A stretch of DNA of 64,000 bases. Origin: Halothermothrix sp. (lineage in GTDB: Bacteria > Bacillota > Halanaerobiia > DY22613). The stretch is taken from NCBI GenBank assembly GCA_016841825.1, contig JAENYK010000010.1, forward strand, positions 1 through 64,000, given 5' to 3'. The stretch's first letter is position 1; every line of letters starts with the position of its first letter. Shown here in pieces: positions 39,041-58,574 of the stretch. Under the pieces are notes generated by a model that saw only the letters and a list, made by a program, of their open reading frames with translations, searched no databases and was not told where the DNA came from. The position numbers and the translations under genes are program-made.

Positions 39041-42000
39041 CTATTGCGTATTGGATTTGACACCAAAATTAACTTTTTGCACAATTCCGGTTAGACTAAT
39101 CACAACCGGATTTTCAGTAGTTAACTCATATCCTTCAGGTAATGAAGAGACATCTAGTTTGAGTAGTAGGTCTTCTCCTCTACTAAAGTTACTCGCCAAT
39201 TCATCAACAAGATGATAAAGACCTTTGTTGTCAGTTGTGATAATCTGACCAGAAACTGTCAAGATCTTAACCCCTGGCAAGCCATTCTCATCTTCCTGCT
39301 GTATTCCATCACCATTCAGATCATTGAAGACTTTCCCGATAACCAGAGAGCTGGAGAATCTACTGTCAACAATAACCCGAACATCAGCTATCGCTTCATT
39401 TGAGATAACCACATCAGTCAATCCATGAATCGCTGTTACCCGATTCTGATAGATATTACCTTCGACTACTCCTGTTCCGACGACCAGATTATATGTCAAA
39501 GTAGCTGTCTGCCCCGCTTCTAAACTCAGTTCTTCCCAGAGTAGTGTTTCATTTACTACTGGTTCACATGGCTGCCCATCAAGCCTGGCAGTATCTTTAA
39601 CGTATTTGAATCCTGGCGGAATCATATCTTGAATAAAATAGTTACTAATCACAGCAGTAGTCTGATTTTCAATCACAATAGAGTACTGAACAAACTCTCC
39701 GATGGAGACTGTCTGGCGGTTAGCCTTTTTGGTTAACAAAATAGCACCTTCCAGGACTGGATCGATTGGGATATGGTTATTACAAATTTTTAAATTCCCG
39801 GAGCGATGGCTAATTGTTAAGAAATAAGTAGTATCTACATCGGAAGTTGATGGCAAATTATTCTCCACAATCAGATATGAATCTTCAATAACCTGTTCAC
39901 TACCACCATTTATCACCAGTGTCTCTTCTTCCGGTTGAATGATTGTGGACGGGAATTGCGGGCTATAAGTGTTCGGTGGCACTACTCTGAGAGTATAGTT
40001 CCCTTCAGGTGCACCATCCAGAATATCCACCCGATAATGTCCAGCAGTTCCTGTAATTTGACCTTGCTGACCTGGCAGGAGATCCCTTTCAGCATCAAAA
40101 CCTGCTGGCCCAGTAATCCAAACCTCTGCTCCAGAAACGGGCTGTCGGGTTACTGCATCATAGACTATTCCTGTCGGTTCATAAGGATAATTCTGCCTGG
40201 TATCTAAAGTTCCCGATAACAGAGTCAAACCCTGAACAATTCCACTGGCAACCTGGGTAGTTGAATTCCGATAATATAATTTATAACCATTTCCGGGTAA
40301 TAAACCTCTGAATCTGTATAAACCTGCAGAGTTTGTCATAGTTGATGCAATTAGATTATTGCCCTGATAAATCTCAACAATCCAATTTGCACATAACTGT
40401 TCATTAGCAGCTAATTGATTATCGTGATCATCATCTAGCCAGACAGTTCCTAAAATATTAGTAGTTCCCGGATTACTGCCTATCTGAATTCTGGTAGGAT
40501 CATCATCATCCAGATAGATATCTATATTGTTGGCGTCTATACCTGCAAAAAGTTCCTGATTATTTAAAACAAATTCACTTACTTGATTGTCTATTCCATC
40601 ATCCAGGTCTGAGTCGCTGACCCCAGTAAGGCCTTCTCCACTTTGATAAACTACCTGAAGATCAATAGTTCTTCCAGAATCCTCACTAACTGCAGCCCGG
40701 AAGCGAATATTTATGGTTTGACCAGCGTTAAGTACACCCAGGTTAAGCCCTTCTTCAAGCTGGCTTCCTCCTGCAAGTGTATCCGCTACCGTAATTCCAC
40801 GAACCATAGTTGAATCTGCCATATAAGTTAACTGGGTCGGTAAAGCAGTTTTTACGACCACATCTGTTGCTTCCAAAGAACCAATATTGCGAACCTGAAT
40901 ACTGTATTCCAATAAATCACCGACTTTAATATTATCACCATTCAGATCACTGACCTGCATAATCGCCCGTAATACAGGGACTAAACCGGCAGCAATCTCG
41001 GTGGGCTGATCACCATTCGAATCATCACCATCTGCATCTGTCTTCTCATCTGGCAGCTCTTCACAGGAAACAACTCCCTGACTGATGATTATCTGTTCAT
41101 CAGGCACAAAATCTACCAAAACTTTATAGGTAATCTCAAAACTAACAGCCGGATTTAGATTGCCCAGGGCAATACGTACATCTCGTCCATCAACAACACC
41201 TTCTGGATCACGACTGACTGTCTGGGTCTTGAAGCTATTTGTAGACATTCTATTATCACCACTTATTTGCAGAGTGCCTGCAATATAAGTTGTCTCCTCA
41301 GGAATAGTATCAGCCAGTCCAACCTGTGTAGCCTGAGCATTACCCAGATTTGTCACAGTTATCTTGTAGGTAAGCACATCTCCTGCTTCCAGTTCACCAC
41401 CATTGTCATCGGTAACAATCTTTTGTGCATCCAGAATAGGAAGATCTCCTAAAGCACTATAGGTTGGATCATCAGCTAGCACAGTGTCTGGATCATCACT
41501 CAAAATCTGAATAATTTCTGTATCTACACCTTCTGTACCCTCACCATAAGCAGTTAAAAATGCCTGGCTGGTAATAATCGTTCCACTTACTACCTCTGGA
41601 TTAACCTGTACTGTAAACTGCACTTCTATCTCCTGGTTGACATTAATTCTTCCCAATTGAACTCTATCAGCCAATGGGAATTCTCCGTTCCTATCTTCCA
41701 GAATCTGTCCATCAACCAGCGTAGAACCTGTTACATATGTGGTATTCGCTGGTATCTGATCCTGCAGTACAGCCTGAACAGCATTCTCATTACCTGTATT
41801 ACCGATCCGCATATTGTATGTTATTAGAGTTCCCGTAGAGAGCTCACTCTCAGAGAAGCTATCTCTTTTTGACATAGACAGAACAGGAGAAGATGCAATA
41901 GTCAAACCAGCTGATCCCAACTGGATTTGATCAATCAAAGATGGAACATTCAACTCTGATTGATTATGAATGATAGTTCCGTCAACCAATACAGACTTAA

Positions 42001-45000
42001 GAGTAGCATCCCAGTTGATTGTAACTTGACCACTCTCTGCAGGTAATGAGATTTGAGTAATTGTAAATGTTCCGGTATCATTCACACCTGCAGTAGGTTC
42101 TTCAATACTAATTACTCCCGAACTGGTAGTCAGATTAGTCAGGCTTCCTGCTGCAAATTCCGCAGCCAGATCAATTTTCAGAGTCAGATTATCTGCAGCA
42201 ATATTTCCCGTGTTATTAATCTGTATCGAATAATGCACCATTTCCCCCGGTCTGGCTAATACCCGATCTGGCAGTATATTTGCCGTGATTATAGGAGACT
42301 GAATTTTCACATCTACTTCTGAGGTCTGTTCATCTCCCAATTGATCATAAACCCGTACATCATCTGTCACTCCTCCGTCAATGTTCCGACTGTAGTATTT
42401 TGTAACCATTCCTGTATTAGTTAAGGTAAGATTAGTATAGTTCTGCCTATTTAAATCAGCCTGATAATTCAGAGTGAGTGTTTCACCAGGATCAATATAT
42501 CCAGCAGCTGATTTTAGAGTAATCACCCATTCTCCGGTCTCCTGATTATAGCTTAAATCATAGTCATCAGGTGCAAGTTCAAATAGTTCTCTGGCCGGTT
42601 GTCCGATCCAAAAACCAGTTATTCTCGGTTCTAGCTCTCTCATCTCTGGCGGTAAGATATCCTTAATTACCGGCTGCCAGGCTGTGCTCTGACCATTGTT
42701 AACAATAGACAGAGTAAAGTTAGCTGAGGCATTATGACTAACCCATTCCGGACCACTCTTATCAATAACCAATTCTGGCTCAACAACTGTCACTGGAGTA
42801 GATTCAGTATCTCCGACAGAGAAATCATCATTCCCATCTTGAACTAACTCATAAGTATATTCACCGTGCAGTACAAATTCTGTACCAGATCGGTTAAATT
42901 CCTGATTCTTAATTCTCACATGAAGTTCCACAACAGCTTGTCTGTTCGTGGGGATTAGATCAATTCCTTGCAAAATTAAATCATCATCTACCAGATTATA
43001 TCTGAGATCACCTGAAGCCTGATTATCAATTGCATAATTAACTCCCAGCAACTCTATATTATCTGGTAATGTAAACTCAACCTCCAAATCGTATAAATCA
43101 GTATCGATTAACTGACTATCTCCCGGAATCCTCACTGTATAGACCAATTCCTCTCCAATAGTTCCCGAAAGAGGATTACCTATCGTCATAAACCCAGGAG
43201 TTGAGATGGAATTATGAGTTATCGACTGATTGAGAGTCGAACCATATTGAGCCATATCAGCCAATGTTGACTCAGGTGGAAGATTATCATCATCTAAAGA
43301 ATTATAACTCTCCACTCTGCCAACAGTTGTCAGAATATCTCCCGGAGTAAGAGAACTATCTGCTCTAATAGTATAAATTATCTCCATAATCTCACCTGGG
43401 GAGATCGTATAGGTATCAGCCTGATCATCATTGAAGTCCCAGAGAATTCGCCCATCAATATCAAAATTAGCATTAGTCTCCGGGTATTTTATAGCTCTAT
43501 CCAGACCATTAATTTTGATACTTTCAACAAATATGCCTGTTTGACCTCGCTGTCTAAGTCCTTCCGGTATAATATTTAGAACTTGCAGATCATATGCTGG
43601 AGCAGTTCCAACATTAGTGATAGTCAAAGCATAAGTGATTAGCTGATCTGCCATAATATTACTACCATTTATCGGATTGGCGGTCAGTATTGCCTCTAAT
43701 TCAGGTTGGATAATCGCCAATTCTGTTCCGGTTAATGTGGATTCAGGCATTGTTGTCTTCCCAGTATAGCTAAGATTTGCCTCAACCTCGACCAATTGAA
43801 CAGCCGAATCATCCGGCAGATTGTCATTCACCTGCACCTGGTAGCTTATTACCAGATCATCAACCTCATGGTTATCTGCAGTGTTTACAACATCCCCTAA
43901 GTCCCAGATCAGATCGGCTGAGCCTGCATTTGGCGTATTGAGTAAAGTAATCGGTGAATAACTAAATACTCCAGCTTCTGTAAATGGTGGTTCTGTATCA
44001 CCATTGATACTAACTGTTTTCACAAATTCCATACCAACAGGCAAATGTGAAGACAATATTAATTCCTGAGACGTACCTTCCTGTAGGTGAACTGTCATTG
44101 TTAATGTTACCAGGTCACCTATCCGCAAATCATTTGTTCCCGGATTAAAGGTATCAGTATCTCTGACCAGGCTTATACTATTAGCATCTCGAGTTTGAAC
44201 AGTGGTGATAGCCGCTGCTGTATAGTCATTCACACCACCTACTCCATCACTACCATCACGCTCACCGATGATCTGACCAGCCCGACTGGTCCAGTCTACG
44301 CTAACAGTATTGATAAGTGATTGATTTATAGTTGTCTGATCCATTACCTCAACCTGGTAAATATAAGTAAGCTGATCAGCCATTGGCAAATTGATATAAA
44401 TTGGAGTTAGACTATCCCGACCCCAACTAATAGTTTGCGGGGAACCTGTTTCGCCAGTTCCGACCACCTCTGGAACGAGCTGAGTTGTCATCCCCTCATA
44501 AATCTGGGCCAGACTTCCAGCGACATATTTTAAGCCTGAATTTAAGTTATCTATCAGGTTTAGATCATATGCTGTTGAAACATTGCCAGTGCCATTTGTT
44601 AACGTCACCTTGTATTCTATTATGTCACCCGCGTCCGGTGCTGTAATCTGTTCAAAATTCTGATCACCTTTGGTCACGTTTCGCGCCTCTTGAGCTATCA
44701 CTAACTGAGGTTCAATCACTGTCAAAGAGTCTGATATCTCAGTACCTCCGATAAAGTCATCGATCCCGCCATCTATCAGTTCATAGGTATAGTTGGTAGT
44801 TATTTCAAATTGTGTTCCCTGAGTATTAAATGCATCGTTTTTGATGTTCACTTTTAAATCTATCACTGCCTGAGTACCAATAGAGACAGTCTCTATCCCA
44901 GTCAATTTGAGAGTATCTCCACTCAAATCGCTTAATAAATTACCTGCAGCCTGGTTAGTAGCAGCAAAGTCAGCTTCTATAAATTCAACATTGTCAGGTA

Positions 45001-48000
45001 AGGTGACCTCAACTTCCAGATCATAAAGGGTCTCCTCAGAATTACTATCACCCGGGATCTGGAGCTGATAGAGAATCTCCTCACCAATAGTTCCCGTAAT
45101 CGGATTAGTGATCCCCGGAATACCGGGAGTTGAAATAGTATTATGATCTACAGCTGCATCCGGTGTACTGTATTGCCTTCTAATACTACTGCCGGGAGAT
45201 AGGTCATCATCCAGTGAGTAATACGCTTCAACCGACACTGAATTACTGAGCACTAACCCTTCTCTTAGATCACTATCCGCCCTGGCTGTAAAGACAAGAA
45301 TCAACTCTTCGGTAGGCAAAATAGTATAGGTATCTGCTGTCGCTCCATCATCCAGATTCCACAAAATCCTACCATCATCTGTAAAGTTAATATTCGATTC
45401 AGGATCTTTAGCCGGTTTGGTTACTCCTGCTATGGTTATACTCTTAACAGTTATTCCTATAAGCCCCTTTTCGCGTAAGCCCACGGGTAAGGTATCAACT
45501 ATCAACAGATCATATGCAGGTGCGTTTCCGGTATTAGTTACTGTTACTGTATACTCAATTAATTGATTAGCCATAATATTGCTATCACCAGATGGTTCCG
45601 CAGCCAGATTGATATTCAGATCAGGTTGGTTAACCTCAAGAGTTGTAATAATTTCTGTATTTTCTGGCAAGGTTGCTTTTCCAGTATAGGCAATATTGGA
45701 ACTGACGTTTAGATCCTGATTTACCACCGCTGGGTCTAGAGCTTCGTTCACCACTCCCCGATAAATTATGATCAATTCATTATTTGTTTCATCATTATCA
45801 CCTGAATTGGTTATATCTCCAAAAGTCCAGGTCAGAATCTGTTCATCTGCGGAAGGTGTTATGGCAAAATCCACTATTCCATATGTGAATACTCCTCCTT
45901 GCGAATAGGGAGCCTCCAGATCGCCATTGATACTGATTATATCCACAAATTCCAAACCTTCCGGAAGAACTGAGTTCACAACTAAATCACCTGTTGTACC
46001 TTCCTGAAGATTGACTTTTAATTCAAATGTCACCAAATCACCAATCCGTAAATCATTCACTCCAGAATTAAAAGTATCAGTAATCTCGACACTAAGAGTA
46101 TTATCATCTGGTATTTGAACCATTGTAGAATCAGTATCCCGATAATCATTCAGGCCTCCAGATCCATCACTACCATCTCTTTCTCCTGCTACAATTCCAT
46201 CTGCACTGGTCCAATCCAGAACAATAGAATTCGTTAGATTCTCTAGCACAGATACACTATCCAATACCTTGACTTTGTAGGTATAGACAATCGTCTGATT
46301 TTCAGGGAGGTCAATATCCCTTTGATTTGGATCAGCCTCTCTGCCCCAGTGAATAATCTGAGCAGAATCTATACCCGTACCAGTAACTTTTGGTGTAATC
46401 GCTATTTGACTTCCTGAATAGTTCTCTTCCATACTTCCGGCTAGATAACCCAGACCTTTGTTTAGGGTATCCACTATATTCAGATCATAAGCAGAAGAAA
46501 TATTGATTCCGGTATTATTGATAGTCACCCGATATTCCAGAACATCTCCAGCATCTGGACTGGTCAGAGTTGTAAAATCATCGGGATCTCCTTCAGTCTG
46601 ATTGCGAACTTCCTGCAGGATAGTTAGTTCAGGTTCAGTAATTATCAAATCGGTATTAAGCACATCTCCTGTACCAAAATCATCATTATCGCTTTCCGTT
46701 AACTCATAACTATAAGATCCTGACAGTGGTAGTTGAACTCCGGCAGTATTCTCCTGGCAGTTGACAATCTTAACTGTTATGTCTACAATTCCTCGACAGT
46801 TAGCGGGTATCGACTCAATTCCAGTTAAGGTTAACTGAGAATCATCAAGATCTGAAGTCAAACTACCTGTCGCCTGATTCTCAGAACCAAATTGTGCTTT
46901 GACAAACTCCACTCCTGTTGGCAAATCTAAATCTAATTGTAGATCATACAACACAGTGTCAACAGTAGCCCCATCTCCGGGGATCTTTAGTTGATAGACT
47001 ATCTCTTCACCAATAAAACCTGTCCCCGATAAATCAATACTCAACGCTTCGGGAGTAGAGATTGTATGATGATTTACACTGGAGGTCACTGTTTGTGCAT
47101 ACTGCTGCCTATCTTCCTGCATCACCTCAGAAGGCAAGTCCTGATCATCCAGAGAATAATAAGCAGTAACCTGAGCAGTACTACTCACTGTATCGCCTTC
47201 TGCCAGATCTCCATCACTACGAAGAGTGTAGATGATAATCAGACTTTCACTTGCCGGAATATGATAATCATCTATATTCAGATCACTCAGATCCCAGATT
47301 AATTGCCCATCAGTTAAATAATTCGGATTATCATCGGGATCTTTGATTACTTTGTCTATCCCCCCTATAGTGCAGCTTAGCACTGTAATTCCGTCTACTT
47401 CACCCTGGCGCAAACCGGATGGAATAGTATTTAATATCTGCAGGTCATAGGCTGACCCCTGACCAGTATTAGTAACCGTAATAGTATACTTCAGCTTCTG
47501 ATTGGCCATAATATTAGTCCCATCTGCAGGACTAGATGTAATATTTACATTTAATTGAGGTTGTCTGACTTCAACTTGGGTGTTAACCTTAGTTACCTCT
47601 GGAAGCGTCGTTTTATCAGTATAATCAAGGTTCGCGCTAACATCCAGAAGTTGGGCAGCAGGCGTAACAGCTAACTCTTTTACCACTTGAGCACGATAAA
47701 CAATCTCCAGAGAATCATTCACCAGATTATCACCAGAATTAACCAGATCACCAAAGCTCCAATATAAATTCTGATCACCTGCAGCAGGTATATGATCGTC
47801 TTGAATCTCATCATAACTAAATCCATTAGCCGATTCATACGGCGATGATGAATCACCGTTAATACTCACAGTGTTTACAAATTCTAGACCTTCTGGCAGA
47901 GTTGAAATTACTGTCAAATCTTTAGTAGTACCTTCCTGCAAATCTAAATTCAACCTGAAGGTGACTATATCCCCGATTCTTAGATCATTTGTACCGGGAT

Positions 48001-51000
48001 TGAATGTATCTGTACTTCGTGTAATATTTAGCAGATTCGAGTCTGCCGAGTTAACAATTGTAACAACTGATTCCAGATAGTCATTTAACCCACCTGTTCC
48101 TTCGCTACCATCTCTTTCTCCAACTATCTCTCCATCCAGACTGGTCCAATCTAACTCCAGAGAATTAGCGAGTTGCTGATTGGCAGCTATCTGATCCAGT
48201 ACACGTACTTTGTAAGTATAAATAATCGTCTCTCCCGCAGCAAGATCAACATCTCTGGTCGGCACCTGTTCTCTGCCCCAGACTAACATTTGAGGAGAAC
48301 CACTATCTCCAGTACCACTAACCTGGGGATCAAGCTCCACAGTTCCCAGATGTTCCTCCTGCATACTGTCAGTGATATAGCATAATCCCTCACTCAGATT
48401 AGCTACCTGATTAAGATCAAAAGCCGTGGATGAATTAACTGTTCCATTGGTGATAACTAACCTATACTGAAGAATATCTCCGGCATCTGGGTTGCTGCAA
48501 CTTGAATAATCATCTGGATCACCTTTGGTCTCATTTCTGACCTTTTGCACCACTGAGATCTCAGGTTCCTGAATAGTGAACTCCACATCGTCAGAACTAA
48601 CCGTCTGCAAATTATCAGCATAATCTACGTAATTGACCTCAGCCTGGCTAGATCTCTCCTCTCCTGACTGATTCACTCCCAGATTGGCAATCTTAACTGT
48701 ATAGTCAATTATAATCTGATCGGGTTCAAATCCATCATCGGGATTGATGATTCTACCAAATTCCCAGATAATCTGTCCCGTCTGACCAACCAGTGGTTCC
48801 TGAGCCAGTGGTGAATAACTAATATTCACTCCCTTAGTAATATCATAACTGACAAGTTCAACTCCTGAAGGCAGCGTATCCTTAATTAATACGTTATCGG
48901 TAGTTCCTTCATTCACACCCAGGACTATACGGTAAACAAAAGTTTCTCCAATTGTATAACCTGATGTTGGAAGAGTATGAATAGCCTTATTCAAATCGGT
49001 AGCATCATTGATAGTAACAGAAGCGACCAAATTATCAGTATATGATCTTTCATATAAATTCACCCCATCAATACTCTCCCACTCCAGGTCAGTCTGAAAA
49101 TCTATCTCCTGTCCTGGTTCTACCTCTGTAGTCAATTCAGCTTCTATATTAAGCACCAGTCGCTGATCATTATCGAGGTCAACATTCCCCGTCTCTCCCC
49201 AACTGATATGCTGGTCATCAGTCTGAACTTCTTCTCCCAGGGTACCTTCGATAATCTCAAAATCACGTAAACGCATCATAGTTGGTAAAGTCTCGCTCAC
49301 TACTAGATCATAAGCAGCAGAATTACTCTCTCCAGTATGTTCTATAGTTAATTGATAGGTTACAAGACTGCCAGCCTGATATGAGCCAGTCGAAGTGATA
49401 TCTTTGCTAATAACCAGAGTAGGTTCAATTACTGTTAAGTTATCTGTTACTGCAGAATTATCGGTTCTGGTCAACTCATCATCATTGATTGAGTTAAAGT
49501 TGAAGATCATACCAGTGGTAAGGGTAGCCCCTCTCACTATCTCGGGAATATCTTCCCTCACAGTCGAACTAAACTCCAGTTGATAGATTATATCTGACCC
49601 GGTATTATTGGAAATATCAACATTATCTCCGGTGAACCAGGTCAAAACCTGACCTGTGCCTATATCCCCTGATACATCCGGTACGGGCGATCCCAGATCT
49701 GGCCCTCCTGTACCTGTATTTGGACCACTGGAAGTACCCACATTAAATTCTAATCCTGGTGGTAAAGTATTCTCAAGATTGATGTCATAGATACTGGTTC
49801 CATCCGGTACAGTAAAACGTAATCTATAAGCCACAGTATCTCCGGGTCTAATCTGACCATCAATTGGGGTTACCCGATAAATACTATATTGAGCATCAGT
49901 AGTATTAAAAGTTACCGTCTGATTTGCGGAAGCCGGATATTTGACAACACCAGTTGTCCCCATCGGTTGACTATAGTATTCTAATACTCTGGCTTTATGC
50001 AGCAGAGCAACACCTGCACTAATATCACTATTAACCTCAGTTTTATAAGTGATAGTATGGTATTCATCCTTTTTAAGAATACCGCAAGAAGTATTCTCAA
50101 AAATGATATTCAATTCTCCACTGACATTATCATAATTTATCGCATAATCTGTATCTTGAACCAATACAAGATCATTTCCTTCTGTATCATGCTTACTCAC
50201 GCTTAGTGTAGAGCCGGGATCAAATGATCTCGTCCCAAATGGCAAAGTATCATAAACCCTGGTCTGGTAACCAGGACTATCACCTGTATTAGTAATGATT
50301 AGAGTATGAGTAATCTCCTGATCTGCTGTCACATTACTACCACTGTCAGGAGTACAGGTTCGGGAAGTGATAGAAATAGATGGCTCATAGAAAACAATAT
50401 CTTCAGTATCCTCCAATTTATCTGGAATAATCATATGATCAAAACTGTACACTGTACCAACATTTATTTCAAAAGATGCAGTAGCTTCATTAGAGAGCAT
50501 GGAACCATTAGTCAGAGCACCTTCTTTGATAATTCTGGCTCTATAAGTTATCATTGGAGAATTAGGTCCAACAAAATCATCAATCGTCCAGCACAGATTC
50601 TTCCCGCCATGTGCTGAACTAACTCCTCCCGGAACAGTTTCATCATAAAATTCCAATCCCTCTGGTAATATATCTCTAATGGTGATATTTTGATACGGAT
50701 CTTCACCCTGAAAATTAGGATTTATTGTAAATGTCACAATCTCCCCAGCTGAATCAGCCAATTGGTCGTCTGGATTCCCAGTATCCTGGTCTACAGTTTT
50801 CTGGAAACTAAAAACTGCTACCAGAGTATTGATAGAATCTGAACAGACCTGTGAAGCATGTCCCCATTCTATAGCAGTAATTTCTTTCAAATGACTACCT
50901 GCTGAACTTATGGTAGCCTGCAGATTAAAACTAAGAGTCGCACCTGGATTGATAGTCCGATTGTTCCATTGCAAAACATTTCCTGTCGTTTCATCTGGCG

Positions 51001-54000
51001 ATGAACCTGGCAAAATATTAGAATAAGCATCTCCTAAAGTATCGGTAATCTCCACATTGGTCGCCGGAGCATTACCGGTATTGCGAACTGTGATAGTCCA
51101 GTTCACTACTTCTGCATTGTTGGCAACCTGCAGCCCTTCGGAGATATTCACCACCAGATTAGCTTTTTTGGGTGTAAATGAACCAATATCATTAACAGTC
51201 GGCCGCACAATTCCCGATGAATTCTCATAAGTAATATCCAATTCAGGTTCAAACACAGAACTATCACTAGCTCCAGAATCAAAATCTTGAATATCAAAGT
51301 CTATGGTGTGAACACCTGCAAAAATCGGTCCTGCCCATCTCCAGGTCAAAGTAGTCTGACCTGCTATTGGCTCAATCGACGGCGCGACCGTATTTAAACC
51401 CCCCGAATAGGTTAATCCCGGTGAATCAGCTACAGCAAAACGGGAAAGCAGATTATATTGAACTTCCATATTATATATCGGTGCCCCGGTAGTAGTAAAA
51501 GTCAATACTACATGACCGTCTTTCGTCGTAAAATCGGTAATATTTTGTTCAACAGTAGCTATTTCCGGCTGTGTAATCAGATTGGCACTATCACTGTTGT
51601 CACCGGGACTAGTTAGTGTCGAAGTCTGGCTTCCCCAACTAACACTGGCAGTATAATTATCTGGGTCAGTACAGGGACCATCAAACTTACCAATTACATA
51701 ATACTCAACTGTCTGACCAACCTCTATATTACCAATATTCCAGGAAGGATTATCACCAATAGGTGCTGGTGTTATGGAGACGAAGCTCATATTAGTAGGC
51801 AAACTATTAGTTAAAGTCATATTCTTAGCAATCGCAGTCCCGGTATTGCTAATCCTTACTCTCCATCTAACCTGTTCATTTAAAGATGCAGTAACATCTT
51901 TCGAGTATTCCATATCTGTTTCCAGGTTCATCCCACTCACGTTCACAGTGATATACGGTAATTTACGCGGCACTGAATACTGAGCACCAATAGTAGAACC
52001 GGAGCGACTTACTCCCCCCGTATCCCACGGCATCTGCCAGGTTACAGTAGGAGTCACCACATTTTCTGTAGTGAATGCCTCAGTAGTCATCACCCCGTAT
52101 TCAATCAGGCAGACATCCAATGGAATCAGCAGTTCCAGGTCAGCAAAACTCTCAAATGACCAGATTAGTGATGTTCCGCTAATCACTGGATCTGAAACAG
52201 CTAGACCATTAATCTTTGTACTTCCCGGGGTGTATTCAAAACCTGTGCCTAATTCTTGTGTAATGATCAAATTATAGTTATCAGTCTTGCCATTGTTCTC
52301 TACCCGTATCTTCAAGACTCCAGTATCTTCAAGACTGATAGCTGGTACCTCATCATTTTTTACAAATATAGAAGATGTTGGTTTTCTAAATTTGGGAAAA
52401 TCAGTACCACTATTTCCTGACACAATCTGAATTGGATAGTAATTGTCAGAAATATCCTTCCAACCATAACTGGTCTCGGCTGTACTCGCCTGATCAAAAT
52501 CTGCAGAACTACCACTGGTTGCAGCATTGACAACTATTTTTCTGGTCTGACCCGGGGGAATATCACCCAGATCCCAACGTATAGTCTGATATCCCGGAGA
52601 ATCAGTGATTACTAGATTAGCCGGATTATCATCAACAGTCGAATCGGAATAGGTCAAAACTTCCAATAATTCTTCAGTCAAATAGGTATTATATGCGGTT
52701 CCCATCCCCATATTGACAACTTCGTAAACCCAACTCAGATTATCTGATGTCAGATCAACCAGAACTGGACTGACCAAAACATCCAGTGCAGCTTCCAATA
52801 AATATTCCACACTGGTTGATTCTATTCCGGTGTAATGTGCACCCAGATCATCATCATATTCAAGCTTACCGGTTATCTGTGTATGATCAGATCCAGTTTT
52901 GACAGCATCAAAAGTAATCGTACCAATACTATCTGTCTGGCTGAGATTAAACGGATTATTAAAGGTTAAGATGATCTCAGCTTGCCCATCACCATCACTA
53001 TCATTTAGATTTACCGAGGGTACCTGACCATTGAATCCTGTGTATTCCAGATTACCCCGATAAGCAAAATTATCGTTCAAATCTACAGTCAAAACAACAT
53101 TATTATCGTTCCAGGGTGTAAGTTTGTCCACATTGAGATTAATCTCCAATAATTCACCCTTGCTAATCTGTTTACGGTTAAAATCAATATCTACATCCAT
53201 GCGAGCTCTGGAAATTGGCACAAAAACTCCCTGATAGAAATGATGCTGATTATCTATCACTTCTCCACCAATGGCATTGGAGATAATCAGGTCTGATTTA
53301 CTGACAAAATCTTTCCAATATTGAGAAGTAGCTGGCAAACTGTCATCAGTCAAACTAAGCTTATATCTTAAATATAAGATCTTTCCGGCAACACTATTAT
53401 TCCCATAAATCCCCTGGAGAAAATCTAATTGAAAGGTTAAGGGAGAGATGGAGATTATAGAATCTGCGGGTATATCAGTCCATTCCCCGCCACCAACCCG
53501 ATACTGGGCTGTATCAGTCAGATAAACCTGCTCATTATCCAGATTATCGGTATAGGTTGAATCAGTCCAGTTTCCGGAAGACAGAGGATCAAATTCATAA
53601 TGTAATTCGTATGATACCTCATCTTTATCATCTTTACCACAAACGTCAAACCTTCCCTCGTCGGTAGGGTTAACAATATTTTTGCTTTCATAGAGAAATC
53701 TGGTCTCTTCTTCTCTACTCTGCAAATAAAAATATGTATTAGCTGTGCTTTTTACATCACAACCGGATATACTTATTCCGACAAGAGAAGCTGTATCAGT
53801 AATTAACTGACCTGCCAGAGTTGGGTCGTCAGTAGCAGTAGTGCGAATGGTTATAGTCTGTCCATTATAGGCTTCAGCAGGAGTCATACTCCAGGAGATA
53901 GTTTTACTGTTGTCTACTTCATCAATAATTACCACATCACCCGTAGTAACCGTTACATCTTCTGGGTCAAAAATGAACTCTTCAGGCATATTGTTTGTAA

Positions 54001-55531
54001 ACACCACATTATCTTCCCGCCATTTACTCAAATTATCAATTTTAGCAGAGAAAATAAAGTCCACCGACTCATTTAAGAATATTCGCTGATTATCGCCATC
54101 ACTGGATTGTGTACACATAATAGTTCTGCCAATTGTGATATCTGGAATATTTATCACTGAATACATTGATTCAACCAGTGGAGACATAAAAGTTTTCTCA
54201 ATGTCATTCTGATATTCAGGTATCAGGGTTAATTCAAACTCAGCTGTATTATCATCAATAAATTTGCCTGGATAATCAGGATCATTAACACCCTGGTACT
54301 TGTGTAGGTGGCAGCAGTGATCAGCACCTTCAGGAACCAGATTAGGTGTCAAAGCAAAAGTAAGGTTAACACTCTCGGTCTCTGCAATAGTTCCATCATT
54401 CGCCTGATACATAAAAGTTCCGGTATCAGGTTCAAAACTCCATCCTGGAATAACATTGGAGACTGTGAAATAATCCCTATCTATATCTGTATCCAATTTA
54501 AAATTACGGGCAGTACCGTATCTAGTGCTATTATTGGTTATCTGAATCTCCATTGTATCAGATTCTGCCCCATAATCTAATACTGGAGTTTTATTCACAA
54601 CAATATCAATCTGCGGTTGACTGATAGCAAGGAAAAAATCCTCCAGATCAGAATAGCTCTCACCAGTAGTCGTATTATCATAAGCACAGGTTAATTCAAA
54701 ATTCTCATAATCCTGTACATCCAGAGTAAATTGGAAGTTCAAAAACTCTCCGGGTGCCAATTGGCTCAAAAGTACTGTATAACAGTCGGATTCAAACTGA
54801 GGAACCACATTACCAATCCCTCCAACCAGAGTCGAAGTGGCAAAACCATCTCCCCAATCGATTATTAGATATTGATCCTCATCGAAATAATAATGACCTT
54901 GCCCGTTATTGGTAATCCGTGCCTCTAAAGTAATGGTCTCTCCCCGATGAACAGTTAATGGTACATGCGAAATTGGGATTAATTCTGCTTCTAATTCTCC
55001 TGCCAGAACATCAATCGTCTCTTCATCAAAATACTCGTAATTATCCCCCAGAGAATTGCTGGTCTGAACAGTAGTTTTGACAATGTTTAATAACCCACCC
55101 TCCAAAAAAGCATCAGTGGTCAGTTTATAACTCAAATTCACCTTCTCCCCAGCCTCCAGGTCTAATTCTGGATCGAAAGTGATGATTATCTTATCATCAA
55201 TAACGTCTACCAGTATAGGTATAGTTATTTCATCCATAGTCACCGTCATACTATCTACAAGATAGGCAAAATGCTGATTAGCAAAGCCTGTCTGGGTATC
55301 AATAATCTCGATGATTACCTGAATGTCCTTTGCCTGATAAATGCTCATATTCTCTATCTCGACAGAAAATGTTTGTCCAACGCTGTCATTAACATATGCA
55401 ATAAGGTCATCAGGTTGAATAACACTTAAGGTAGGTTCTTCTTCTGCTGCCAGTATAAGTGCTGACGAAAAAAAGATAATGAGCAAAATCAGAAGAAAAC
55501 TACTTAGTTTTTGCTTTAGGTTAGCTCCCAT
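39041..55531 (-). CDS. Giant secreted DUF11/SdrD-type repeat protein (5,496 residues)
   Basis: One uninterrupted frame of 16.5 kb. A signal peptide (LLILLIIFFSSALILAAEE) is followed by dozens of immunoglobulin-like DUF11 modules with recurring motifs such as YTVTVTNTGNAPAYDL, DTLPxGL, INPLSGTIGEE and VLTYKITVTNLGNAQAT. Residues about 2320-4250 are three tandem super-repeats of 641-644 residues. Near residues 5020-5090 and 5400-5490 are SdrD-B-like domains (GTVWLDDDHDNQLAANEQ; GKVFNDLNGDGIQQEDENG), and the end is ENPVVISLTGIVQKVNFGVK. There is no LPXTG, SLH or transmembrane anchor. Start ATG at 55529-55531 follows AAAGGAGGA. The barrel gene 35 bp upstream is in the same operon and may hold or export it. 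The role is probably cell surface or adhesion (inference). Confidence 0.9.
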   Translation of the reverse strand: MGANLKQKLSSFLLILLIIFFSSALILAAEEEPTLSVIQPDDLIAYVNDSVGQTFSVEIENMSIYQAKDIQVIIEIIDTQTGFANQHFAYLVDSMTVTMDEITIPILVDVIDDKIIITFDPELDLEAGEKVNLSYKLTTDAFLEGGLLNIVKTTVQTSNSLGDNYEYFDEETIDVLAGELEAELIPISHVPLTVHRGETITLEARITNNGQGHYYFDEDQYLIIDWGDGFATSTLVGGIGNVVPQFESDCYTVLLSQLAPGEFLNFQFTLDVQDYENFELTCAYDNTTTGESYSDLEDFFLAISQPQIDIVVNKTPVLDYGAESDTMEIQITNNSTRYGTARNFKLDTDIDRDYFTVSNVIPGWSFEPDTGTFMYQANDGTIAETESVNLTFALTPNLVPEGADHCCHLHKYQGVNDPDYPGKFIDDNTAEFELTLIPEYQNDIEKTFMSPLVESMYSVINIPDITIGRTIMCTQSSDGDNQRIFLNESVDFIFSAKIDNLSKWREDNVVFTNNMPEEFIFDPEDVTVTTGDVVIIDEVDNSKTISWSMTPAEAYNGQTITIRTTATDDPTLAGQLITDTASLVGISISGCDVKSTANTYFYLQSREEETRFLYESKNIVNPTDEGRFDVCGKDDKDEVSYELHYEFDPLSSGNWTDSTYTDNLDNEQVYLTDTAQYRVGGGEWTDIPADSIISISPLTFQLDFLQGIYGNNSVAGKILYLRYKLSLTDDSLPATSQYWKDFVSKSDLIISNAIGGEVIDNQHHFYQGVFVPISRARMDVDIDFNRKQISKGELLEINLNVDKLTPWNDNNVVLTVDLNDNFAYRGNLEYTGFNGQVPSVNLNDSDGDGQAEIILTFNNPFNLSQTDSIGTITFDAVKTGSDHTQITGKLEYDDDLGAHYTGIESTSVEYLLEAALDVLVSPVLVDLTSDNLSWVYEVVNMGMGTAYNTYLTEELLEVLTYSDSTVDDNPANLVITDSPGYQTIRWDLGDIPPGQTRKIVVNAATSGSSADFDQASTAETSYGWKDISDNYYPIQIVSGNSGTDFPKFRKPTSSIFVKNDEVPAISLEDTGVLKIRVENNGKTDNYNLIITQELGTGFEYTPGSTKINGLAVSDPVISGTSLIWSFESFADLELLIPLDVCLIEYGVMTTEAFTTENVVTPTVTWQMPWDTGGVSRSGSTIGAQYSVPRKLPYITVNVSGMNLETDMEYSKDVTASLNEQVRWRVRISNTGTAIAKNMTLTNSLPTNMSFVSITPAPIGDNPSWNIGNIEVGQTVEYYVIGKFDGPCTDPDNYTASVSWGSQTSTLTSPGDNSDSANLITQPEIATVEQNITDFTTKDGHVVLTFTTTGAPIYNMEVQYNLLSRFAVADSPGLTYSGGLNTVAPSIEPIAGQTTLTWRWAGPIFAGVHTIDFDIQDFDSGASDSSVFEPELDITYENSSGIVRPTVNDIGSFTPKKANLVVNISEGLQVANNAEVVNWTITVRNTGNAPATNVEITDTLGDAYSNILPGSSPDETTGNVLQWNNRTINPGATLSFNLQATISSAGSHLKEITAIEWGHASQVCSDSINTLVAVFSFQKTVDQDTGNPDDQLADSAGEIVTFTINPNFQGEDPYQNITIRDILPEGLEFYDETVPGGVSSAHGGKNLCWTIDDFVGPNSPMITYRARIIKEGALTNGSMLSNEATASFEINVGTVYSFDHMIIPDKLEDTEDIVFYEPSISITSRTCTPDSGSNVTADQEITHTLIITNTGDSPGYQTRVYDTLPFGTRSFDPGSTLSVSKHDTEGNDLVLVQDTDYAINYDNVSGELNIIFENTSCGILKKDEYHTITYKTEVNSDISAGVALLHKARVLEYYSQPMGTTGVVKYPASANQTVTFNTTDAQYSIYRVTPIDGQIRPGDTVAYRLRFTVPDGTSIYDINLENTLPPGLEFNVGTSSGPNTGTGGPDLGSPVPDVSGDIGTGQVLTWFTGDNVDISNNTGSDIIYQLEFSSTVREDIPEIVRGATLTTGMIFNFNSINDDELTRTDNSAVTDNLTVIEPTLVISKDITSTGSYQAGSLVTYQLTIEHTGESNSAAYDLVVSETLPTMMRLRDFEIIEGTLGEEVQTDDQHISWGETGNVDLDNDQRLVLNIEAELTTEVEPGQEIDFQTDLEWESIDGVNLYERSYTDNLVASVTINDATDLNKAIHTLPTSGYTIGETFVYRIVLGVNEGTTDNVLIKDTLPSGVELVSYDITKGVNISYSPLAQEPLVGQTGQIIWEFGRIINPDDGFEPDQIIIDYTVKIANLGVNQSGEERSSQAEVNYVDYADNLQTVSSDDVEFTIQEPEISVVQKVRNETKGDPDDYSSCSNPDAGDILQYRLVITNGTVNSSTAFDLNQVANLSEGLCYITDSMQEEHLGTVELDPQVSGTGDSGSPQMLVWGREQVPTRDVDLAAGETIIYTYKVRVLDQIAANQQLANSLELDWTSLDGEIVGERDGSEGTGGLNDYLESVVTIVNSADSNLLNITRSTDTFNPGTNDLRIGDIVTFRLNLDLQEGTTKDLTVISTLPEGLEFVNTVSINGDSSSPYESANGFSYDEIQDDHIPAAGDQNLYWSFGDLVNSGDNLVNDSLEIVYRAQVVKELAVTPAAQLLDVSANLDYTDKTTLPEVTKVNTQVEVRQPQLNVNITSSPADGTNIMANQKLKYTITVTNTGQGSAYDLQILNTIPSGLRQGEVDGITVLSCTIGGIDKVIKDPDDNPNYLTDGQLIWDLSDLNIDDYHIPASESLIIIYTLRSDGDLAEGDTVSSTAQVTAYYSLDDQDLPSEVMQEDRQQYAQTVTSSVNHHTISTPEALSIDLSGTGFIGEEIVYQLKIPGDGATVDTVLYDLQLDLDLPTGVEFVKAQFGSENQATGSLTSDLDDSQLTLTGIESIPANCRGIVDITVKIVNCQENTAGVQLPLSGSYSYELTESDNDDFGTGDVLNTDLIITEPELTILQEVRNQTEGDPDDFTTLTSPDAGDVLEYRVTINNTGINISSAYDLNIVDTLNKGLGYLAGSMEENYSGSQIAITPKVTGTGIDSAQIIHWGREADPNQRDIDLPENQTIVYTYKVKVLDSVSVLENLTNSIVLDWTSADGIVAGERDGSDGSGGLNDYRDTDSTMVQIPDDNTLSVEITDTFNSGVNDLRIGDLVTFELKVNLQEGTTGDLVVNSVLPEGLEFVDIISINGDLEAPYSQGGVFTYGIVDFAITPSADEQILTWTFGDITNSGDNDETNNELIIIYRGVVNEALDPAVVNQDLNVSSNIAYTGKATLPENTEIITTLEVNQPDLNINLAAEPSGDSNIMANQLIEYTVTVTNTGNAPAYDLLIVDTLPVGLREKGLIGITVKSITIAGVTKPAKDPESNINFTDDGRILWNLDDGATADTYTILPTEELILVFTARADSDLREGLVLSNSVSVEAYYSLDDDLSPGSSIRRQYSTPDAAVDHNTISTPGIPGITNPITGTIGEEILYQLQIPGDSNSEETLYDLEVEVTLPDNVEFIEADFAATNQAAGNLLSDLSGDTLKLTGIETVSIGTQAVIDLKVNIKNDAFNTQGTQFEITTNYTYELIDGGIDDFIGGTEISDSLTVIEPQLVIAQEARNVTKGDQNFEQITAPDAGDIIEYKVTLTNGTGNVSTAYDLNLIDNLNSGLKYVAGSLAQIYEGMTTQLVPEVVGTGETGSPQTISWGRDSLTPIYINLPMADQLTYIYQVEVMDQTTINQSLINTVSVDWTSRAGQIIGERDGSDGVGGVNDYTAAAITTVQTRDANSISLVRDTDTFNPGTNDLRIGDLVTLTMTVHLQEGTSQELILSSHLPVGMEFVKTVSINGDTEPPFTEAGVFSYSPITLLNTPNAGSADLIWDLGDVVNTADNHEVDDLVISYQVQVNDNLPDDSAVQLVEVEANLSYTGKTTMPESTLTGTELAIIQPELEAILTANPINGSNIMADQLITYALTITNVGTAPAYDLQVLNIIPEGLRQRGQTGIFVESIKINGLDRAIKYPETNANFDIDGRILWDFNDDQADTYTISPGEIMEIIYTIRADSSLTPGDILTTVGRVESYNSLDDDNLPPESTLADMAQYGSTLNQSITHNSISTPGFMTIGNPLSGTIGEELVYTVRIPGDSQLIDTDLYDLEVEFTLPDNIELLGVNYAIDNQASGDLRYNLVDDDLILQGIDLIPTNRQAVVELHVRIKNQEFNRSGTEFVLHGEYTYELVQDGNDDFSVGDTESTPVTVVEPELVIDKSGPEWVSHNASANFTLSIVNNGQSTAWQPVIKDILPPEMRELEPRITGFWIGQPARELFELAPDDYDLSYNQETGEWVITLKSAAGYIDPGETLTLNYQADLNRQNYTNLTLTNTGMVTKYYSRNIDGGVTDDVRVYDQLGDEQTSEVDVKIQSPIITANILPDRVLARPGEMVHYSIQINNTGNIAADNLTLKIDLAAEFAAGSLTNLTTSSGVISIEEPTAGVNDTGTFTITQISLPAESGQVTINWDATLKSVLVDGTIIHNQSELNVPSLIDQIQLGSAGLTIASSPVLSMSKRDSFSESELSTGTLITYNMRIGNTGNENAVQAVLQDQIPANTTYVTGSTLVDGQILEDRNGEFPLADRVQLGRINVNQEIEVQFTVQVNPEVVSGTIITSQAFLTAYGEGTEGVDTEIIQILSDDPDTVLADDPTYSALGDLPILDAQKIVTDDNGGELEAGDVLTYKITVTNLGNAQATQVGLADTIPEETTYIAGTLQISGDNRMSTNSFKTQTVSRDPEGVVDGRDVRIALGNLNPAVSFEITYKVLVDFVPDEQIIISQGVVSCEELPDEKTDADGDDSNGDQPTEIAAGLVPVLRAIMQVSDLNGDNIKVGDLLEYSIQVRNIGSLEATDVVVKTALPTQLTYMADSTMVRGITVADTLAGGSQLEEGLNLGVLNAGQTINIRFRAAVSEDSGRTIDLQVVYQSGEGLTGVSDSDLDDGIDNQVSEFVLNNQELFAGIDANNIDIYLDDDDPTRIQIGSNPGTTNILGTVWLDDDHDNQLAANEQLCANWIVEIYQGNNLIASTMTNSAGLYRFRGLLPGNGYKLYYRNSTTQVASGIVQGLTLLSGTLDTRQNYPYEPTGIVYDAVTRQPVSGAEVWITGPAGFDAERDLLPGQQGQITGTAGHYRVDILDGAPEGNYTLRVVPPNTYSPQFPSTIIQPEEETLVINGGSEQVIEDSYLIVENNLPSTSDVDTTYFLTISHRSGNLKICNNHIPIDPVLEGAILLTKKANRQTVSIGEFVQYSIVIENQTTAVISNYFIQDMIPPGFKYVKDTARLDGQPCEPVVNETLLWEELSLEAGQTATLTYNLVVGTGVVEGNIYQNRVTAIHGLTDVVISNEAIADVRVIVDSRFSSSLVIGKVFNDLNGDGIQQEDENGLPGVKILTVSGQIITTDNKGLYHLVDELASNFSRGEDLLLKLDVSSLPEGYELTTENPVVISLTGIVQKVNFGVKSNTQ
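42782..44713 (-). repeat. Coding super-repeat unit 3 in the giant gene
   Basis: 1,932 bp (644 residues), from EPQLVIAQEARNVTKGD to the next EPELVID. Four sub-domains in fixed order: A (QE-RN...PDAGD...GERDGSDG-GG-NDY), B (DTFNPGTNDLRIGD...INGD), C (SNIMADQLITY...SLDDD...HNSISTPG), D (NPLSGTIGEELVY...DDF-VGD). Confidence 0.85.
44714..46636 (-). repeat. Coding super-repeat unit 2 in the giant gene
   Basis: 1,923 bp (641 residues), beginning EPELTILQEVRNQTEGDPDD, with the same A-B-C-D sub-domain order as units 1 and 3. Sequences are diverged but in register. Confidence 0.85.
46637..48568 (-). repeat. Coding super-repeat unit 1 in the giant gene
   Basis: 1,932 bp (644 residues), beginning EPEISVVQKVRNETKGDPDD, with the same A-B-C-D order. 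It is preceded (48569-49426) by a shorter 286-residue block that looks like an A-B half unit starting EPTLVISKD. Confidence 0.85.
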
Positions 55532-55566
55532 TAGTCCAGTCCTCCTTTGGTCTACAATATTTCAGA

Positions 55567-58341
55567 TTACCATTTTTGCATTACATTCATAAACAAACCC
55601 TGTGATTCATAGTTCAGGTTGGTTAAATCATCATTAAAATCAGTAAAATTATAGCCTATTCCAAGCTGCGTATGGGGTGCAATATCCCAATCCATACCGA
55701 TCAGGTAACCCTGCTTAGAATCCTGAGCTAAAGTATTCCAGAGACGGCGATATTCCCCATAGACACCCCAGCCGGCAAGAATAGCATAATTTAATCGATT
55801 AATCCACAGGTATGTATCACTAGTAATCCACTCCTCTGTATCATCAGACCTCAATGCAGAGCTTTTATAAGCTAACTTCTCACTTAATTGAAGGTTAGCA
55901 ATTAGGTCATAAACTCCTTCCAGAGTAGCAATGGCTGATCTCTCATCGGGAACTGTTCCGGAAATCTGCTCAGCAGGCGACAAATTCTCCAAATAGGTAA
56001 ATTTCCCAAATAAGTTAAGACTATCATCAGTTATCGGTCGATATGCAAAACCTAAATTCCCTTCAATTCCCCGTGCCCATTCATCTGCTAAGCTGGGATC
56101 CATTGTTAGAGAACCATCCAATTCAGTGATCAAAGCCAGTTGGGGATTCAAATCCCAATTAAGACGATTCCTCACAAGATATTGTACAAGATTATCATCC
56201 CCATTGATCAAACTAGCCTGAAGATAACAATGATAATTAAGATCAGCCAGATTAAGAGCAGATTTAATCCCGATACTATCCCGTTCATAGACTCCAATCT
56301 CTTCTATCTCCAGATCTTCAAAAAGCTTTTTGGTTACTTCCTCAATCTTAATAGTCGAATACCTATCATAAGGTCTTTCCTGTTTTTTATCAAAATTACC
56401 ACTGGTATACTCCAATCCTAAAAGCCAATTATCCGTAGGCAGGTACTCTAAACCAATAAGATTAGTTGATACATCCGCATAAGTTCCCCAGGAACTTTGT
56501 CTCTCCAGAAGAAAAGTCAGTTGTTGATTCCATTCAAGGTTATTTCCCGTAAAGAAACGATTTGTAACCCCACCAAAAGCGTCCTTTTCTTTGTGGAACT
56601 CCCCATAAAGATAACCCTGATCAGTATAATAATATTTCAGATTTAAACGGGCAAAATCCCCAAGACTTCCGGCAGAGACATCTGACTTCAGTCGGAGCTG
56701 ATCCAAAATTGCAGCATCCATACCTACGATAACACGATGGTTAACCGGGGTATGCTGATTATTGTTCAGTGTAAACTGTTCGATAAGATAATACTTCTCT
56801 GCTGAACTTTCGGTATAGTCAATCCGTAGTCCAATAATTGTGTCTTCTAGAGGTGCTAAATCCTTCTCCATAATCTTCTGATACCTTAACGAACTGCTTA
56901 AAGACATCTGCGGACTATAATCTCCACTTAAGATAATTGCAGCAAAATTGATATCCTCCCCTCCAGACGCACGTTTGAGAACAATATTATTATTCACTAG
57001 AAAATCCAGAAGATTACCCTGTAACTTGATCTTCGCCAGACCCTGTTCATTTAACGACTGTTGGGTTGAAGAGACAAAACCCTTCTCCTTATATGATAAA
57101 TCACCTGATAAACTTAGGTTTGAAAGATCTGTAACATTAGTGGGTAACTGAAAATTAAAATTAACATCTACAGCATTACTACCCTTCTCTCCCCCAATTA
57201 CCGGTAATGCAATATAACTAAGCCCACCCGAATCAGAATAATTAATCTGATCTGGTTGATTCACAGAATATGCCCACTCTGTCTTAAAATAAACCTGATC
57301 CCCCGGGGGTGCATAAGTCATATCTGCCCCATAGAGGGTATATAGTTCTCCGTTCTGAGTCTTTTCAGAGATAAGATTACCACCCAGATTAAGAAACTCT
57401 TTACAAGAATATGCTCTGAAACCATAAGTAGAGTCTGTTGCAATCTCTTCAGGGATATGCTCATACTCAGCAATCAAAAATATATCATTATCAAGAGTAA
57501 TTGAGTTATTAATAATGTTTGAATTACCCGTTAAATCTTCCAGTGCTCGCAAAAGAATAACTCTTCCCTGAAGATAATCAATGGTGTAATCTCTCCCCAA
57601 CTGTAAAGAGATAGTTTTAATAATTTCTCCAATTGCCCGATCTTGAACTTCGATTTTCAACCTGTCACTACCAGACAAGATATTAGCGTATTTTAGATAG
57701 TAGATCGAACTTCCTGTAGACTTTATCTTATCAATAGAATGAATTGTTCCAGGTATAGACCAAAAATATTTTATACCAGAGTTGTGGTCATTCAAATCCA
57801 ATTTGACACCATACAACTGTCGGTTATAAGCGGTCAAAACAGTAGTATTGAAATCACTCGCATAATCACCCCAGAGAATCTTATAATTATCCCATTCGAC
57901 ACTTAAATATAATTTTCCACTGGTTTTTACATCATTTTGAATAGTGGAGTCATCTCCATATATAGGATAATATTGGTCTGGATTAACAGTTAGATCCTGC
58001 CTCTTTAGAATGGAACGAAACTCAGATAAAGACCCTTCACCGGTATCCAATTGGGCAGTTACTAAATATTTGCCTTTGACTTTCCCTTTGAGATATACAG
58101 CAAATCTGCCCTCGATAAACACTTTGGTAGCAAATTCATCCTCATCTGTAATCGGTTCAATATATCCCTGCAAATGAGTAACTCCAACTGTTAGATCTGT
58201 TAAACCGATTAAATAATAAAGTTCAATCTCATCAAAAAGATCAGTAGATCCATAAATTGTCTGACAATTGATGATAAGAATAACAGATATGATTAAATAA
58301 ATTAGTGGGATATACCTGGGTTTTAAAATTTTTGACGTCAT
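55567..58341 (-). CDS. Predicted outer-membrane beta-barrel partner of the giant repeat protein
   Basis: A 924-residue secreted protein. The signal sequence (about residues 8-32) is followed by a conserved-looking segment: GRFAVYLKGKVKGKYLVTAQ, QYYPIYGDDSTIQND, GKLYLSVEWDNYKILWGDY, YNRQLYGVKL and DYTIDYLQGRVILL. The rest is alternating polar/hydrophobic strands with many aromatic girdle residues, ending YESQGLFMNVMQKW; a final aromatic residue preceded by alternating hydrophobics resembles the beta-signal of outer-membrane proteins. From memory, similar segments occur as the C-terminal part of single large DUF11 proteins in Gram-negatives; here it is a separate gene. I prefer the ATG at 58339-58341, preceded by AGAGGTGA, to the GTG at 58350. 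Confidence 0.7.
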   Translation of the reverse strand: MTSKILKPRYIPLIYLIISVILIINCQTIYGSTDLFDEIELYYLIGLTDLTVGVTHLQGYIEPITDEDEFATKVFIEGRFAVYLKGKVKGKYLVTAQLDTGEGSLSEFRSILKRQDLTVNPDQYYPIYGDDSTIQNDVKTSGKLYLSVEWDNYKILWGDYASDFNTTVLTAYNRQLYGVKLDLNDHNSGIKYFWSIPGTIHSIDKIKSTGSSIYYLKYANILSGSDRLKIEVQDRAIGEIIKTISLQLGRDYTIDYLQGRVILLRALEDLTGNSNIINNSITLDNDIFLIAEYEHIPEEIATDSTYGFRAYSCKEFLNLGGNLISEKTQNGELYTLYGADMTYAPPGDQVYFKTEWAYSVNQPDQINYSDSGGLSYIALPVIGGEKGSNAVDVNFNFQLPTNVTDLSNLSLSGDLSYKEKGFVSSTQQSLNEQGLAKIKLQGNLLDFLVNNNIVLKRASGGEDINFAAIILSGDYSPQMSLSSSLRYQKIMEKDLAPLEDTIIGLRIDYTESSAEKYYLIEQFTLNNNQHTPVNHRVIVGMDAAILDQLRLKSDVSAGSLGDFARLNLKYYYTDQGYLYGEFHKEKDAFGGVTNRFFTGNNLEWNQQLTFLLERQSSWGTYADVSTNLIGLEYLPTDNWLLGLEYTSGNFDKKQERPYDRYSTIKIEEVTKKLFEDLEIEEIGVYERDSIGIKSALNLADLNYHCYLQASLINGDDNLVQYLVRNRLNWDLNPQLALITELDGSLTMDPSLADEWARGIEGNLGFAYRPITDDSLNLFGKFTYLENLSPAEQISGTVPDERSAIATLEGVYDLIANLQLSEKLAYKSSALRSDDTEEWITSDTYLWINRLNYAILAGWGVYGEYRRLWNTLAQDSKQGYLIGMDWDIAPHTQLGIGYNFTDFNDDLTNLNYESQGLFMNVMQKW

Positions 58342-58368: not shown

Positions 58369-58413
58369 GGACTTTGAACCAGCAACAGGTGCTAGTATAT
58401 AGTTCCATAGTCC
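58369..58413 (-). promoter_or_regulatory. Structured 5'-leader hairpin before the barrel gene
   Basis: On the minus strand three nested arm pairs line up: GGACT/AGTCC, GAAC/GTTC and AGCA/TGCT, around a CCTGT loop, 28 bp before the start codon. It could be an RNA regulatory element or attenuator; it matches no riboswitch I know. Confidence 0.45.
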
Positions 58414-58518
58414 CATATTAAGACTTCGGTAAAAATATCTATCTTCCTGCCGAATCAATAATTTTTACGAATTATTTATTTTGGATAAACGTTAAATTTT
58501 ACCTCCTAAAGTTATAAT

Positions 58519-58549
58519 TAAAAAAAGAACCACCCTTAGTGAGTGATTC
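58519..58549 (-). terminator. Terminator of ddl
   Basis: GAATCACTC-actaa-GGGTGGTTC (two G-U pairs) followed on the minus strand by TTTTTTTAA. It lies beyond repeat copy 5. Between it and the barrel gene (58414-58518) I see an isolated AGGAGGT at about 58500 with no ORF. Confidence 0.8.
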
Positions 58550-58574
58550 TTATGCCCAAAAATAGTAACTGATC

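Follow-up and report, generated by a model that had tools for sequence, protein, structure and literature searches.

A giant DUF11 protein and a predicted very large outer-membrane barrel, encoded side by side in a diderm spore former, belong to an apparently widespread gene pair

How might a bacterium hold at its surface, and perhaps export, a protein of 5,496 residues that carries no recognised anchor of its own? The question is raised by two adjacent genes in the window, the 64,000-nucleotide stretch of Halothermothrix sp. DNA analysed here. A preliminary description had read them as genes 35 bp apart, one for a predicted β-barrel with a signal peptide and one for an anchorless giant ending in an SdrD-B domain followed by VNFGVK, and all of these points stood up to ORF calling, Pfam and AlphaFold2. 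Both frames lie on the minus strand.

55567–58341, minus strand: barrel gene, 924 aa from its ATG, preceded by a Shine-Dalgarno-like GAGGTG; an alternative upstream GTG start at 58350, giving 927 aa, is possible (ORF, Shine-Dalgarno motif, AlphaFold2)
55532–55566, minus strand: 35-bp intergenic gap, holding the Shine-Dalgarno-like AAAGGAGG before the giant
39041–55531, minus strand: giant DUF11 protein, ATG start, 5,496 aa, 598 kDa, pI 4.05
58394–58421, minus strand: promoter-like pair 5' of the barrel gene (consensus scan only)
58525–58551, minus strand: terminator-like stem after ddl (consensus scan only)

The terminator-like stem and promoter-like pair both lie in the ddl–barrel spacer, as would be expected of an operon with the barrel gene first. 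The giant is separated from the next gene by 310 bp, a spacer in which a terminator-like site was sought and none found. GC content, at 0.37–0.41, is close to that of the remainder of the window. ARAGORN places a tRNA-Thr at 56132–56219, inside the barrel gene, with no Rfam support, and we regard it as a probable false positive. Elsewhere in the window (33878–38730), genes for a 1,054-aa subtilase and a 559-aa PKD/CarboxypepD_reg protein are spaced 8 bp apart and show a likeness, below cut-off, to dentilisin PrtP/PrcA; this second pair could process surface proteins, for example the giant.

Each chain starts with a hydrophobic segment predicted to be a signal sequence, its cleavage site placed by eye. 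In the barrel protein we recognise the following features.

58249–58341, minus strand: predicted signal sequence, about aa 1–31 (hydrophobic segment; helix 12–30 in the model)
55573–58227, minus strand: predicted transmembrane barrel, aa 39–923, about 40 strands (AlphaFold2 secondary structure)
57493–57744, minus strand: small inserted domain between strands 7 and 8, aa 200–283, with the motif LxxGxDYxIDYxxGxIxL
55570–55665, minus strand: C-terminal hairpin GIGYNFTDFNDDLTNLNYESQGLFMNVMQKW, highly conserved in alignments, with an aromatic last residue (β-signal)

AlphaFold2, run with 48 sequences, predicts a large barrel (pLDDT 80.2, pTM 0.71) with 41 strands of at least seven residues between aa 39 and 923, outside the inserted domain. 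The 924-residue protein is thus predicted to be an unusually large barrel of about 40 strands, a count read from secondary structure with ring closure not inspected. The top matches in a structure search with this model are outer-membrane barrels, namely LptD, TonB receptors, ushers and SprA. The window barrel has W as its last residue, and an aromatic residue (Y, W or F) closes the chain in 87 of the 93 members compared. No Pfam or NCBIfam family names the protein, generic small-barrel models being the only ones to touch members; PDB sequence searches, with the single sequence or a profile, returned nothing useful, and Pfam finds no Omp85 or POTRA domain in it.

The SprA match raises the idea that the barrel is a true homologue of this T9SS translocon, with the C-terminal domain of the giant as the counterpart of the T9SS C-terminal signal. 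VIA-align pairs 599 residues over the whole model with 8gl8_A (Z 14.3, rmsd 12.0), the most of the rows listed, and hhalign gives Prob 90.7 (E 1.2e-6, 98 columns; reversed control 0.5); in SprA itself, the C-terminal domain of a T9SS substrate sits in the pore (PMC10994853). The sequence match, however, is carried by the inserted domain, whose LxxGxDYxIDYxxGxIxL module recurs in SprA and in a flagellar hook protein encoded by the window genome, and masking this one module drops Prob from 90.7 to 10.9. TIGR04189 does not match the barrel and is listed for none of the aligned barrels, with a 51-position match below cut-off elsewhere in the genome. The C-terminal domain of the giant resembles SdrD B, and no T9SS C-terminal domain is among its structural neighbours listed, an absence that in itself proves nothing. 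Homology to SprA, which the structure comparison and hhalign had first favoured, now appears very unlikely indeed.

The hook-type protein of the window genome (L160:2046–3914) carries the EGVDYTVDYTTGEI hairpin module that is also in SprA (hhalign Prob 96.4), and two Bacteroidota proteins of about 1,191 aa (L155 and L157) have SprA's hairpin module too. The EGVDYTVDYTTGEI module appears to be mobile among extracytoplasmic proteins that are otherwise unrelated.

The giant is built of a long stalk and a distinctive C-terminal end, which we call the dock.

55445–55531, minus strand: predicted signal sequence, about aa 1–29 (hydrophobic N-terminus)
39449–52744, minus strand: array of 27 DUF11-like modules, aa 930–5361 (iterated HMM)
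39935–40174, minus strand: CarboxypepD_reg domain, aa 5120–5199 (Pfam PF13620)
39398–39736, minus strand: last DUF11 domain, aa 5266–5378, conserved with Proteobacterial partners
39044–39433, minus strand: dock region, aa 5367–5496, with an SdrD_B-like core from about aa 5395 (alignment and AlphaFold2)

About 3.5 super-repeats of roughly 640 aa make up the array, complete copies being 40–47% identical in pairwise alignment; the Pfam DUF11 model recognises 19 stretches of the protein, and a crude pattern test places a Lys-Asp-Asn isopeptide triad in 5 of the 27 modules. The predicted signal sequence and tandem DUF11 stalk of the giant are two traits of a DUF11/CLIPPER fibrillar adhesin. Pfam finds no recognised adhesive domain in it, such domains being found in the partners of relatives, and likewise no sortase or other anchor, no TPS (haemagglutination activity) domain and, in either half, no Por_Secre_tail (the T9SS C-terminal domain). 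Nor does PF03797 match a barrel on this chain; the barrel is a separate protein.

The C-terminal end consists of an SdrD_B domain (Pfam PF17210, 4.5e-15) followed by VNFGVKSNTQ, and the dock HMM matches positions 5378–5502 of the stop-to-stop ORF. An AlphaFold2 model of the dock, made with 37 sequences, reaches pLDDT 82, and its core aligns with SdrD B domains at Z 11.5–11.7, the value for 10ps and 8vdk being 11.7, and rmsd 1.8–2.1 Å with 24–27% identity; as modelled, the dock has the CnaB-like SdrD B fold. When 64 partners picked by the dock HMM were compared with the window giant, its C-terminal region (the last ~80–950 residues, usually fewer than 300) was the best match for 63.

Is the adjacency of barrel and giant more than local coincidence? 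A profile scan of GTDB genomes yielded at least 566 confirmed barrel relatives, homologous over their full length, of which the best 80 were retrieved. Those listed are mainly Proteobacteria, mostly Gammaproteobacteria, together with Myxococcota, Nitrospirota, Omnitrophota, Campylobacterota, Balneolota and one other Bacillota MAG (L044). By tblastn, further relatives, mostly full length and 23–31% identical, lie on plasmids of Alpha-, Beta- and Gammaproteobacteria, and a giant gene with a dock adjoins the barrel in all six plasmid loci inspected. Across 98 barrel loci searched with the dock HMM, 65 have the giant before the barrel, 7 have the barrel before the giant, 16 are fused in one ORF and 10 are truncated at a contig end; among the 88 in which the partner end is visible, no barrel lacks a dock. 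Three barrels that had looked partnerless, with long N-termini (L087, L101 and L121), proved to reflect overlapping frames in high-GC sequence, and their dock-bearing giants were located. Co-occurrence gives the same picture: at more than 100 bits, 5 of 121 related genomes have the barrel and 6 the dock, with an overlap of 5 (hypergeometric p 3e-8; 6e-7 without the window genome), and dock scores leave a gap from 125 down to 43 bits. A single barrel and a single dock are present in the window genome, and genome G024 has two of each. Taken together, the dock partner of all 88 informative barrels and the co-occurrence in the 121 genomes mean that the gene pairing is more than chance. In one genome, G051 (L165), a strong dock was found and no barrel detected; that assembly is 75% complete, and sequence is probably missing.

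These data also bear on whether the two genes are unrelated neighbours, the barrel being a nutrient receptor or porin and the giant a periplasmic, S-layer or spore-coat protein. Database records do label relatives of the barrel 'TonB-dependent receptor', and the window genome is that of a spore former. Against this, Pfam finds no TonB plug or receptor domain in the barrel protein, nor is one among the 25 families listed for aligned relatives, and the linkage is constant, with fusion, in several phyla, nearly all of them groups without endospores. We consider such an accidental neighbourhood very unlikely.

The preliminary description had gone further, pointing to single large Gram-negative proteins in which the end of the giant and the beginning of the barrel adjoin, and suggesting that the window holds a split and reordered version. 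Such proteins exist: the 16 fused loci include single ORFs that run from DUF11 through SdrD_B to the barrel (for example L032, L046 and L111). The reversed order stands as well, but splitting is not peculiar to this organism, since 65 of the 98 loci already have separate genes, giant then barrel. The barrel-first loci are the window, G008, the two of G024, two divergent loci with small partners in one genus (dock scores 27–42 bits) and Hydromonas (L113), which lies inside the Proteobacteria in our tree and therefore looks like an independent reversal. The divergent barrels of L022 and L023 are accompanied by a small partner of 459 aa that is weakly dock-like at its C-terminus, possibly a minimal form of the barrel–dock system. 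In G008 a separate ORF of 364 aa sits between barrel and giant (L016:15394–16488), and one of the two giants of G024 is broken into two overlapping frames (L018:7702–13124), by decay or sequencing error. A scan of viral contigs yielded one locus, an IMG/VR 'viral' contig with barrel and dock (L124), which the tree places among Lysobacteraceae and which may be bacterial sequence.

In the tree, a branch with SH-aLRT 82 sets the eight barrels of the window's class, together with L044, apart from the others. Nearest to the window-class barrels are Omnitrophota and a deltaproteobacterium; several branches are long and deeper placements unsure. The window's clade combines reverse gene order with a shorter barrel protein: its barrel proteins have very little ahead of the barrel domain, against ~330 or more extra N-terminal residues in those of Proteobacteria. 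What is distinctive here is the reversed order and the fact that the ~330-residue pre-barrel region and an OmpA-like domain are lost or absent. A literature search, with subscription papers mostly outside its coverage, returned no description of a barrel–dock pair. The pair is apparently a widespread, undescribed system, mostly split in Gram-negatives and present in a reversed, stripped-down form in the window's lineage.

A surface role at an outer membrane had been put forward for what was taken to be a spore former, and would sit badly with a single membrane and no LPS or BAM genes. The 5.08-Mb window genome (G000) instead contains BamA, a second Omp85 protein and LpxC, the two Omp85 proteins being encoded away from the pair. 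An LptD model has no match in this genome, and the same model was positive in just 2 of 14 control genomes. Within the window itself, SpoVD, SigG and SpoIIR score above their cut-offs and SpoIIGA slightly below. The host is a diderm spore former.

Which side of the membrane the two proteins would meet on is suggested by the partners. Their C-terminal domain is constant and their outer parts are variable: DUF11 and Big_13 in G024, LRR/DUF285 and CBM96 in G008, cadherin in G049, CshA_NR2 and GEVED in Acinetobacter silvestris. The placement of OmpA-like domains, absent from the window pair, varies: past the dock in A. silvestris, at the N-terminal end of the barrel protein in Eleftheria, in the stretch linking dock to barrel in the L046 fusion, and on a third gene in Vibrio. 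OmpA-like domains bind peptidoglycan, so their position at this junction suggests that dock and barrel meet on the periplasmic side. In Vibrio campbellii the third gene (L041:14692–15597) lies 10 bp past the barrel and encodes two OmpA domains. Omnitrophota fusions have an extra TPR-like tail after the barrel.

We propose that the two genes encode a fibrillar-adhesin system in which the dock binds the barrel and the DUF11 array exits through it and stays as a surface fibre, a reading to which we give an even chance. Sec would take both proteins out of the cytoplasm, and BAM would insert the 924-residue protein into the outer membrane as a barrel of about 40 strands. The SdrD-B-like dock would approach from the periplasm and bind this barrel, probably within or at its lumen; the array would then pass outwards through it, and the giant would remain attached as a very long surface fibre with a putative role in adhesion. 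On this proposal the adhesin would come with an outer-membrane anchor, and a candidate exit pore, dedicated to it. Besides the constant pairing and the constant C-terminal domain with variable outer parts, two considerations point this way. Twenty-seven Ig-like modules, if extended, would probably not fit in the periplasm, and in the fused chains the passenger precedes the barrel, an order that, as in autotransporters, favours export of each passenger by the barrel it is joined to. Less easily accommodated are the isopeptide triad, which the crude pattern places in a minority of the window modules, and the lack of any adhesive domain recognised by Pfam in the window giant.

Alternatively, the barrel may be a dedicated outer-membrane holder and nothing else, the giant being exported via BAM, TAM or another channel. 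The evidence of pairing and docking fits this equally well, the genome encodes another Omp85 protein besides BamA, and there is a precedent in SprF, which binds the C-terminal region of SprB while SprA performs the export (PMC9143113). A holder of this kind is harder to reconcile with the fused relatives, whose passenger lies ahead of its own barrel in one chain, autotransporter-like, or with a predicted barrel far bigger than an anchor needs; moreover, among the loci examined no other secretion gene is constantly adjacent. We see the anchor-only explanation as possible, if doubtful. Our broadest proposal is offered tentatively: in an undescribed, widespread system that occurs fused, split or order-reversed, also in diderm spore formers, the dedicated exit pore and anchor of a giant adhesin recognised by its dock would be a barrel with about 40 strands, against 36 in SprA, and neither T9SS nor TPS nor type I machinery would be needed.

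Hundreds of genomes encode this pair under other names: the barrel is annotated as 'TonB-dependent receptor', 'OmpA family' or 'hypothetical', the partner as a DUF11 or SdrD B-like protein. Treating the two as one system would offer a testable explanation of how DUF11 adhesins of such size stay attached to Gram-negative surfaces, and perhaps of how they get there, and the barrel would become a contender for the largest membrane barrel made of one chain. The presence of the pair in diderm spore formers, in a gene order of its own, is also relevant to how outer-membrane surface structures evolved in Bacillota.

One partner protein has already supplied a solved structure. The CLIPPER/DUF11 structure 9IFR was obtained from B9T28_05395 of A. 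silvestris ANC 4999 (PMC12617251). This strain is among our loci (L108), and the ORF directly upstream of its barrel, 2,129 aa from the ATG, has K715 and N806 as published (PMC12617251). On this sequence correspondence, the source protein of 9IFR is a partner of the barrel–dock family; a barrel partner of B9T28_05395 is not mentioned in the part of PMC12617251 covered here. Like the window giant, B9T28_05395 has a DUF11 stalk and a dock near its C-terminus; unlike it, it carries adhesive domains of the CshA/GEVED kind and has an OmpA domain at its C-terminus, and its gene precedes that of the barrel.

Type V secretion offers a parallel in layout, with fused forms (passenger, then C-terminal barrel) and split forms (passenger and adjacent barrel gene). 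The differences are that the pair described here has no PF03797 barrel, Omp85/POTRA or TPS domain, and that its constant domain is at the C-terminus of the passenger.

Among known systems, the two halves of our proposal have separate counterparts in Bacteroidota. SprB is a 669-kDa repetitive adhesin whose C-terminal region is bound by SprF, the product of the adjoining gene; SprF is a PorP-like barrel needed for SprB display, and export requires the T9SS, through SprA (PMC9143113). There, as here, a giant repetitive adhesin is encoded beside an outer-membrane barrel, although the barrel predicted here is much larger and of another family, and the modelled dock is SdrD-B-like. SprB–SprF is, by analogy, the closest functional counterpart of the anchor half. 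For the export half, SprA is a 36-strand single-chain barrel that holds the substrate C-terminal domain in its pore (PMC10994853). Homology to it is unsupported once the shared generic module is masked, and the likeness is structural only; in its very large single-chain barrel, predicted here, and its small shared module, SprA nevertheless appears to be the closest analogue of the exit pore that we propose.
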